Below, piece after piece: positions 15,238-34,761 of a stretch of 64,000 nucleotides of DNA. The notes beneath the pieces are model-generated. The model saw nothing but the letters and a program-made list of their open reading frames with translations. It made no database searches and was not told the DNA's origin. The stretch is from Archangium violaceum (GTDB taxonomy: Bacteria; Myxococcota; Myxococcia; Myxococcales; Myxococcaceae), in contig NZ_CP069338.1 of assembly GCF_016859125.1 (NCBI RefSeq), forward strand, positions 11,411,501 through 11,475,500, given 5' to 3'. Position numbers and translations under genes: made by a program. The first letter of the stretch is position 1; every line of letters begins with the position of its first letter.

Positions 15238-15250
15238 GCCCCTCAGGGGC
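15238..15250. terminator. Short hairpin between convergent stops
   Basis: GCCCC-TCA-GGGGC is a perfect 5-bp stem with a 3-base loop. It spans the 5-bp gap between the response regulator and PKS stops and runs into the PKS coding end. It is the only terminator-like element available to either transcript here; there is no T tract. Confidence 0.4.
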
Positions 15251-33000: not shown

Positions 33001-34761
33001 GTCCAGCGCCTCCACCCGGGCGCGGAACACCGGCTCCGTGGACAGCAGCTCGCGTCCCATGGCCGGCCACTGTGAGCCCTGGGGCGCGCACAGGAAGGCC
33101 ACCCGGGCCGGAGCGCCGGGCTCTCCCGTGAAGAGGCCGGCCCGACGCCGTCCCTGCCGGAAGGTCTTCAGCAGCATGACCAGCTCCGAGCGTGTGCGGA
33201 AGGTGAAGGCGGCCCGGTGGCCACCCGTCCCCACGTGCAGGGACCAGGTGCGGCACAGGTCGCGCACGCATACCGGCGACTCCTCGTGCAGCACCAGCTC
33301 CTCCGCCTTCGCCGCCTGGGCGAGCAGCTCCGCCTCGGAGTCCGCCGCCAGCGGCAGCAGCTCCTCGCGCCCCACGGGCGACTCCTCCATCACCACGTGG
33401 GCGTTGGTGCCGCCCCAGCCGAACGCGCTCACGCCCGCCGTCGCGGGCTCGTCCTCGCTGGGCCACGGCATCAGCTTCTGCGGCAGGCTCAATCGCAGCT
33501 CGCCGAAGGGGATGCGGGGATTGGGCTCGCCGTGCATCATGTGCGGTGGCACCAACCGGCGAGAGAGGGAGAGCGCCACCTTGATGAGGCCGGTGATGCC
33601 CGCGGCCCCCTCCAGGTGCCCGATGTTGGCCTTCACCGAGCCGATCAGCAGCGGCCGATCGATGGACCGCCCCTCTCCGAGCGCGGCGCCCAGGGCACTC
33701 GCCTCGGTGGGATCTCCCAGGGCCGTGCCCGTGCCGTGCGTCTCCACGTAGTGCACGCGGTTGGGGGGCACGCCGGCGCGTGCGTACGCCTCGCGCAGCA
33801 GCGCCGCCTGTCCGGGCACGCTCGGCGCGGTGAGCCCGTTGCCCGTGCCGTTGTTGTTCACCGCGCTGCCGCGGATGATGCAGTAGATGCGCGCCCCGGA
33901 GGCGAGCGCGGCCGACAGCGGCTGGAGCACCACCAACCCCGCGCCCTCCCCTCGCCCGAAGCCGTCCGCTCCCGCCGCGAAGGCCTTGCTGCGGCCGTCC
34001 GGCGACAACCCGCCGAACTTGGACAGCAGCACGTTCGCCTCGGGCGAGAACATCAGGTTCACGCCCCCCACCAGTGCCAGCCGCGACTCGCCCGCGCGCA
34101 GGCTCTGGCAGGCCAGATGCACCGCCACCAGCGACGACGAGCACGCCGTGTCCACCGTGAGGCTCGGCCCCTTCAGCCCCAGCACGTACGACAGCCGGTT
34201 GGCCACGATGTTGAGGGACTGTCCCGTCGCGCTGTGCAGCGTCACCGCCGCGCGCTCGCTCAGGTGCCGGTCCGCGTAGTCGTGCCAGATGGCGCCCATG
34301 AACACGCCCGTGCGCGAGCCCTTCAGGCTCCACGCCGGCACGCCCGCGTCATCCAGCGCTTCCCACATCACCTCCAGCATCAACCGCTGCTGTGGATCCA
34401 TCTCCGCGGCCTCGCGCGGGGAGATGCCGAAGAAGAGCGGATCGAACCCGCTCACCCCGTCCAGGAAGTAGCCATGACGGGTGTTCATCTTCCCGGGCGC
34501 CTGGGGATCCGCGTCGTACCAGGTGCCGTTGTCCCAGCGCTCCGGAGGGACCTCCTGGAGCAGATCCTTCCGCTCGCACAACAACCGCCAGAAGGCCTCC
34601 GCGTCAGGCGCGCCCGGATAGCGGCAGGCCAGTCCCACCACCGCGATGGGTTCCACATCCCTGACCCCCTGTACGCCTCCGGCCTCCGCGCCCCCCTGCG
34701 CCCGATCCGCCTGCGCGGCGGCACCGGTGCCCAGACCCGACTGGATCTCGCTTTCCGTCAT
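27064..34761 (-). CDS. Type I PKS: KS-AT(dead)-AT-DH-ER-KR-ACP, first gene of the operon
   Basis: This fully reducing module has 2,565 residues and starts without a coiled-coil docking helix, which suits the first protein of a line. It has KS Cys207, then a shortened AT whose nucleophile motif is GHGVG (Gly645). A complete second AT follows, with Ser1002 (GHSMG) and VASH at 1102-1105; this motif is nearer methylmalonyl-type YASH than malonyl HAFH, but the prediction is weak. Next come DH with His1308 and Asp1480, ER with the nucleotide motif HSAAGGLGLAAVQ near 1960, KR with GGLGGLG near 2165, an LDD motif and Tyr2309, and ACP Ser2470. Tandem ATs are known from some myxobacterial starter modules, such as soraphen. 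The ATG at 34761 follows GGGAAGG. The C-terminal tail (LLEMVDDALAAW) looks like a docking segment. Confidence 0.95.
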   Translation of the reverse strand: MTESEIQSGLGTGAAAQADRAQGGAEAGGVQGVRDVEPIAVVGLACRYPGAPDAEAFWRLLCERKDLLQEVPPERWDNGTWYDADPQAPGKMNTRHGYFLDGVSGFDPLFFGISPREAAEMDPQQRLMLEVMWEALDDAGVPAWSLKGSRTGVFMGAIWHDYADRHLSERAAVTLHSATGQSLNIVANRLSYVLGLKGPSLTVDTACSSSLVAVHLACQSLRAGESRLALVGGVNLMFSPEANVLLSKFGGLSPDGRSKAFAAGADGFGRGEGAGLVVLQPLSAALASGARIYCIIRGSAVNNNGTGNGLTAPSVPGQAALLREAYARAGVPPNRVHYVETHGTGTALGDPTEASALGAALGEGRSIDRPLLIGSVKANIGHLEGAAGITGLIKVALSLSRRLVPPHMMHGEPNPRIPFGELRLSLPQKLMPWPSEDEPATAGVSAFGWGGTNAHVVMEESPVGREELLPLAADSEAELLAQAAKAEELVLHEESPVCVRDLCRTWSLHVGTGGHRAAFTFRTRSELVMLLKTFRQGRRRAGLFTGEPGAPARVAFLCAPQGSQWPAMGRELLSTEPVFRARVEALDTTFMPLAGWSLVEALREPLSRVLSDEDAAEPLALAVQVGLAALWRSWGVEPEAVVGHGVGEVAAACIAGGMDAADAVWKVYRASRLRQWDSLRDELEAAQERLWAREGGVRWSSTVAREIGVDGRTGDARCRTLRQPVRFAQASERLISEGIDCFVELSPHPVLCRPVEQLLRKAGKTGVVVGSLRRDEARGALLESLAALHARGVQVRWESLPPPEVPVAELPTPNRPAPVPGRTELLPLSAQTPEALAQAARSLLARLEASPLSLHDVSYSASVHRSHLNHRLALLARTPTEARDGLTAFLRGEVRPGLSVTRHVDGRHQPVVFVFPGQGSQWLGMGRRLMAEEPAFRSALEQCDAALRRFVDWSLMELLSSDNAAWMERIDQVQPALFSLQVALARLWRAWGVVPDMVVGHSMGEVAAAHVAGALDLVDAARIICRRSLLLRRVSGQGGMAVVELTMDEARAAIRGLEDWLSVAASNSPRSTVLSGEPHALAQVLEKLEARQVFCRRVKVDVASHSPQMEPLREDLLRALEGLAPRRGEVPLYSTVTGAVSDGTDLEPSYWVRNLREPVLLAPVVEKLATNGHSLFVEVSPHPVLLPSIEQTIAHLRMEGTVLPSLRREQPEREVMLETLGGLYAAGREVEWKALHPESGRLVRLPDYPWQRQDCWFQPGASNPAPKESRPKQGHSLLGPVRRSSLRPGAFFWDVEVGVSNLPWLADHRVQGTIILPTTGYLDWVMTAVQSALGPGPWVLEDVRIDDALAVLGDGTRMAELLVDVGSTGAISFKVSSFIPTPGGSGAEMWTVHANGRVRASESNGRGSLPLVMVEEIQRRCTEVRIGEAHFQEMELRGLQYGPTFRGVKEVWRKDGEAVGRIEVPDSLGPASELHPAVLDAALQVLLEALPAGDATFVPVRLRRFEVLRRGTPQWAFARLPLQESWRKDSPLEGNVILMDAQGVPLAEVEGLELSALPTRYGRARSEQDRSLFELAWRRVGLPAVFEPGSAEAPWLIFQDASGVGGALAEMLESWGGSCVRVEAGTGLRRLGARHYTVTPGARDELNTVLQQCFPQGAPCAGVAFLWGLELPAPDVQGEQALDEVVRVCGGALRVVQEVVRLGWRDPPRLWLVTRGAYPVLGAPATGALQASLWGLGRAVGHEHPELRCTCVDMDPSSALVDVEALGRELAARAEDEQVALRAGARFAARLVRRSGAKEMLVEPLLPAAGRAFQVETPPAGSFGGVVVRMAERRRPGPGEVELAVEASALNFIDVMKTMGLYVMKNTGKAPGVPLEGLPLGLDCAGRVLAVGEGVTDLSVGDEVVAFAPSAMASHVVTDARFVVRRPPGMSAVEASSIPSVFMTAWYALNHLARLQRGERILIHSAAGGLGLAAVQIAQMLGAEVLATAGTPEKRELLRSLGIQHVMDSRTLAFADEVMRVTNGEGVDVVLNSLSGDAITRSMEVLAPDGRFLEVGNRDIHDGRALDLSQFRRRLIYAAIDLVGLREQRPALCSRLLREVVEQMASGALSPVRHRVFPVSQVSEAFREMAQGQHVGKLVVTLEDPELRIVPPRPGFRVRADATYLITGGLGGLGLEAARWLVGHGARNLLLLSRNASPTAVLPGVEELRAAGARVEVMRADVADARRLADVVALTHGDMPRLRGVLHCAGVLDDGILEQQEPARFRTVMSPKIQGAWNLHMLTRDESLDFFVLYSSMCGMLGLPGQGNYAAANAAMDALAHYRRQQGLPALSVNWGPFSEVGLAAASSNRGERLAYRGMASFTPQQGLALLERLLAEGAVHVGAVALDVRQWLEFFPSAASLRIWEELALERNEGQRGRSDLLLELRRAAAGGRASMLEGYLRDRLAQVLRIDPSRVGRHEPFRGLGLDSLMSLELRNRIEAALELKLSVTLLWAHSTLAALAAYLLDQLGLAPKHEAAAPAPAEQILLVAKASVPESDSHPPADLPEGKLLEMVDDALAAWEDA

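Follow-up and report, generated by a model that had tools for sequence, protein, structure and literature searches.

Split loading modules with the arrangement ACP-KS-AT-AT are known from the assembly lines for soraphen, myxothiazol, myxalamid, chondramide and miuraenamide (PMC10051162), and a 2023 catalogue of 8,799 entries lists 122 PKSs and 351 PKS-NRPS hybrids of the mixed cis/trans type (PMC10394414). Discrete starter acyltransferases (ATs) of the VinK type have been described for cis-AT lines (PMC11284099), a malonyl-CoA:ACP transacylase can serve a DEBS module whose own AT is dead (PMC6164871), and the motif GAAH has been associated with an acyl-CoA starter AT (PMC12843615). In addition, a conserved T1PKS of unknown nature has been reported for Archangium and Melittangium (PMC12766979).

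The window, that is, the whole stretch of 64,000 nucleotides that was analysed, lies at C1:11411501-11475500 of a 12.68 Mb genome assembled as one contig (G000), and its PKS operon consists of three minus-strand open reading frames, P1, P2 and P3, of 2565, 3178 and 757 aa, respectively; the domains of these proteins and the CoA-transferase gene given below by window position are likewise on the minus strand. Domain assignment with Pfam showed that P1 (27064..34761) has the order KS, dead loading AT (AT0), AT, DH, ER, KR and ACP, without an N-terminal ACP, that P2 (17527..27063) has the order KS-AT-KR-ACP-KS-AT0-DH-KR-ACP, and that P3 (15243..17516) consists of KS-AT0, stops at the post-AT linker and is without an ACP. 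The catalytic residues of the P1 KS (33538..34653; Cys207, His342 and His382) and of the second KS of P2 (21394..22500) are all kept. The intact AT of P1 (31117..32028) carries GHSMG and a VASHS motif, is methylmalonyl-type by motif and has the Arg discussed below, while the intact first AT of P2 (24550..25398) carries GHSVG and HAFH and is malonyl-type by motif. The ACP of P1 was placed by Pfam at 27244..27441. No AT gene was found near the operon, and Pfam found no thioesterase within the operon or its near neighbours, which bears out what a previous sequence-only reading of this DNA had stated. A gene of the CoA-transferase family III/AMACR-like type (35088..36260) adjoins the operon in the window, as it does in the other carriers, and was rejected as a member of the pathway, since 53 of 58 family genomes, non-carriers included, have exactly one copy of it; it thus serves as a landmark and neighbour. 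A HAMP histidine kinase gene and two short response-regulator genes occupy window positions 11856-15237 and are convergent toward the operon.

The sequence-only reading had claimed that three ATs lost the nucleophilic Ser, and the replacements are exactly as it gave them, with Gly at residue 645 of P1 (GHGVG), 2136 of P2 and 653 of P3 (both GRGVG). Its conclusion that these three ATs are dead also stood, with the extent of the damage understated, since the middle of each domain is deleted as well. Of the 319 positions of the AT profile, the AT0 of P1 (32362..33096) covers no more than 2-121 and 218-317, about 100 middle residues being missing, and the AT0 remnants of P2 (20359..20931) and P3 (15267..15827) cover only positions of about 2-120 together with the post-AT linker; profile matches and alignments showed that all three have lost the small subdomain along with the region of the catalytic His.

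The complete three-gene operon was found in genomes of the window's genus (G000 and G002-G006) and of a second genus (G031-G034), with an identity among carriers of about 69-86% at the amino acid level, and a third genus, represented by G080, has P1 and part of P2 with the same lesions as the other carriers. A profile search for the P1 AT0 across 145 genomes of the order gave 11 matches, all in these three genera, and the scan of genome contigs named Archangium violaceum Cb vi76 and Archangium lansinium among the carriers. The P1 AT0 motif is GHGVG in ten carriers and GQGVG in G080, with an identical deletion; of the P2 AT0, a remnant survives in the genus of the window, and nothing is left in G031-G034 and G080; and P3, seen in 10 of the 11 carriers, is a KS-AT0 protein without ACP in all ten. 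Because the lesions recur in 11 genomes, chance or sequencing error is excluded, including errors at the three Ser sites. Most simply, the remodelling happened once, before the three carrier genera diverged. Our literature search recognised no paper as describing this operon; the conserved T1PKS of Archangium and Melittangium may be the same one.

Within the window strain, the AT0 remnants of P2 and P3 share 87% DNA identity with each other, while the identity to the corresponding remnant of G003 is only 75% for P2 and 79% for P3. This suggests gene conversion between the two remnants in the window strain, so that GRGVG in P2 and GRGVG in P3 are probably not independent of each other. Three independent AT losses were rejected on the same comparison.

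A homologous operon with intact ATs is present in two genomes of another genus (G057 and G058), and the window proteins align full-length with the proteins of this cis-AT relative (G057). The P1 of the relative has the order ACP-KS-AT(GHSLG)-AT(GHSMG)-DH-ER-KR-ACP with two complete ATs, its P2 the order KS-AT-KR-ACP-KS-AT-DH-KR-ACP with both ATs complete, and its P3, which in G057 was read across a contig break, the order KS(NLGH)-AT-methyltransferase-ACP. The module 3 and P3 AT copies of G057 (L019, L020, L021) are identical, and the draft assembly seemingly collapsed them. As in a split loading module, the first KS of the window P1 is followed by two AT regions in tandem, AT0 and then AT; the first 38 residues gave no PP-binding match with Pfam, in comparison to G057, where the N-terminal loading ACP is present. 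In the AT tree the P1 AT0 branches together with the complete loading AT of G057/G058 at a support of 100/100, which makes the first dead AT a former starter loader beside a working extender AT; it does not qualify as a competent loading AT, having Gly in place of Ser and a gap of about 100 residues that takes in the catalytic His region. As judged from sequence, the P1 AT0 is what erosion has left of the loading AT in a split loading module (ACP-KS-ATL-AT), and the loading ACP of this module has been lost too. A second tandem-AT, split-loading PKS occurs in the same genome (L066, L067; G000:C1:3372000-3398000); in its first AT the motif reads GYSIG and the Arg column holds Gln.

With moderate confidence, we interpret the operon as a selected-for cis-AT PKS that was remodelled from a canonical split-loading line and that would rely on priming in trans, loading of module 3 in trans and release at the P3 KS. 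The P1 KS would be primed with a starter acyl group, most likely via a stand-alone starter-type AT or else directly from acyl-CoA or acyl-ACP; module 1 would add a methylmalonyl-type unit that is fully reduced, and module 2 a malonyl-type unit that is ketoreduced. The ACP of module 3 would receive malonyl in trans from FabD or from one of the two intact ATs of the operon, and the chain would then move onto the Cys of a non-condensing P3 KS, to be released by acyl transfer or hydrolysis.

The sequence-only reading had suggested looking elsewhere in the genome for stand-alone ATs, and two single AT genes outside PKS clusters were found in the window genome, namely fabD, located in the fab cluster, and one PKS-type AT 1.8 Mb away (G000:C1:9632752-9633870); the remark that no trans-AT gene is encoded in the window holds for the window itself, and these two lie elsewhere in the genome. 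The PKS-type AT has its Ser and His intact, is under purifying selection (w 0.18-0.34) and adjoins a kinase gene, unlinked to the operon. Its orthologues, of 373-379 aa, occur in 10 of 10 near-complete carriers, searches of 58 and 39 genomes showed them in no other member of the family, and it was not found in carrier G080, the assembly of which is 86% complete. These stand-alone ATs form one clade in the AT tree, with the first ATs of a different split-loading protein as its sister group, which led us to reject the idea that they are the escaped loading AT of the present operon. In extender ATs, an Arg binds the carboxylate of malonyl-type substrates, and the same rule applies to FabD. At this column Gln was found in 10 of 10 stand-alone ATs and Gln or Tyr in loading ATs, while extender ATs and FabD have Arg; the stand-alone AT, having no carboxylate-binding Arg, is thus of the starter type. 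With Gln in place of Arg it is a plausible candidate for a trans loading AT delivering the starter, and its use as a malonyl supplier is disfavoured. No acceptor ACP for such a trans loader was identified. Since the carriers of the stand-alone AT may be one clade, its co-occurrence with the operon may be a single coincidence, and the link that may exist between the two draws on this co-occurrence, perhaps within one clade, and on the type of the AT.

The same observations bear on the alternative that the stand-alone AT is unrelated, that the intact ATs of P1 or P2 charge the module 3 ACP by inter-module loading, the first option named in the sequence-only reading, and that P1 is self-primed through decarboxylation of its own extender unit. 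The operon does possess two intact extender-type ATs, and an unlinked, starter-type AT is a poor candidate for supplying malonyl, yet the joint loss of the loading ACP and the loading AT, as well as the co-occurring starter-type AT, would then be left as coincidences. To our knowledge, this kind of self-priming has been seen with DEBS in vitro alone. We consider this explanation possible although rather unlikely.

In the proposed remodelled line with acyl supply in trans, module 3 is the second module of P2. No other type I extension module of this genome combines an ACP with the absence of an AT, the assembly-line KSs outside the operon each having a cis AT nearby. Domain content bore out the earlier statement that its ACP (17692..17886) has no working cis AT while neighbouring modules have one; it is the sole ACP of the operon in this position. 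The plural in the term AT-less modules could not be kept, given that the AT next to the P1 AT0 is intact and module 1 is thus not AT-less, the dead AT of P1 being a loading AT beside a working extender AT, and that P3 is without ACP. With one AT-less extension module beside cis-AT modules, the operon has the module content of a mixed cis/trans-AT PKS, in which the AT-less ACP would be charged by a trans-acting AT; it does not fall among trans-AT PKSs, in which modules without AT go together with a stand-alone AT encoded with the cluster, as two of its modules have intact cis ATs. Nor is the mixed arrangement as unusual as had been supposed, in view of the 122 PKSs and 351 hybrids catalogued. 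Because a malonyl-CoA:ACP transacylase can serve an AT-dead DEBS module, FabD appears a better candidate than the stand-alone AT for extender supply to module 3, as do the operon's own ATs.

It could also be argued that module 3 passes the chain on without elongating it, in which case its ACP needs no extender unit and the AT loss is harmless. Constraint on the AT0 remnants of P2 and P3 is indeed looser (w mostly 0.2-0.8 in the window's genus), and the remnant of module 3 is deleted in some lineages, but its KS keeps the catalytic residues, and KS2, DH, KR2 and ACP2 are all under purifying selection in the pairs tested, which makes a non-elongating module 3 improbable. That the cluster is decaying and non-functional, or a product of sequencing errors, is very improbable and was rejected, for even though several domains are truncated and have lost catalytic residues, the carriers have uninterrupted reading frames and share lesions with unchanged boundaries, and dN/dS is low, most domains being under purifying selection in the genera tested (w 0.05-0.20 for the N-terminal part of the P1 AT0, 0.11-0.21 for the P3 KS and 0.01-0.24 for the other KSs).

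In the favoured scheme of a selected-for, trans-supplied line, the chain would end at the P3 KS (16287..17417). This KS keeps Cys207 and His342 and has Tyr382 for the second catalytic His (codon 16373-16371), and therefore does not have the Cys-His-His triad of a condensing KS. The residue is Tyr in 10 of 10 P3 KSs and His in all 74 other KSs at the loci compared, it falls on the catalytic His when aligned with a KS chain of solved structure, and the surrounding loop reads YGRTGT[LV]AH in place of FGxxGTNAH. An N-terminal stretch resembling a docking coiled coil is invariant among the P3s, and in comparison to its relative, P3 is without the AT body, the methyltransferase and the ACP. The dN/dS values given above suggest that the P3 KS is probably kept for a non-condensing role, and it probably handles or releases the chain. 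The AlphaFold models were too poor to use, with a mean pLDDT of 40.5 for P3 and 33.5 for the KS-AT0 part of P1. The combined proposal that starter loading was ceded to a stand-alone AT far from any PKS cluster, without a loading ACP, and that a Tyr-bearing terminal KS turned into a release enzyme, is tentative and at present doubtful.

Taken together, the interpretation given by the sequence-only reading was partly supported; it had missed the lost loading ACP, the His-to-Tyr change in the P3 KS, the conservation across three genera and the starter-type stand-alone AT. These genomes provide a natural series in living organisms, leading from an intact split-loading cis-AT line to one in which the loading parts, a single extender AT and the terminal domains are gone, and intermediate states are among them. 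The series opens the shift from cis to trans acyl supply to testing, and P3 does the same for the role of a KS at the end of a line without the second catalytic His.

In comparison to the split loading modules of myxobacteria (PMC10051162), P1 is alike in having a KS followed by two AT regions and differs in having no loading ACP and a truncated loading AT without the Ser and the His region. The stand-alone AT resembles VinK-type discrete starter ATs (PMC11284099) in being a starter-type AT proposed as a trans loader for a cis-AT line; it differs in being unlinked and sister to the loading ATs of a myxobacterial split module. Its VAAH resembles the GAAH of the acyl-CoA starter AT (PMC12843615). 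The AT-dead DEBS module (PMC6164871) is a precedent for a FabD-like supply, the DEBS case being engineered and the present one natural. Mixed cis/trans PKSs are already known, and the present operon is a variation on them: it resembles them in that one of its extension modules has no working AT whereas the others do, and differs in having no linked AT gene and in that comparison with an intact cis-AT relative lets the AT loss be followed from domain to domain.
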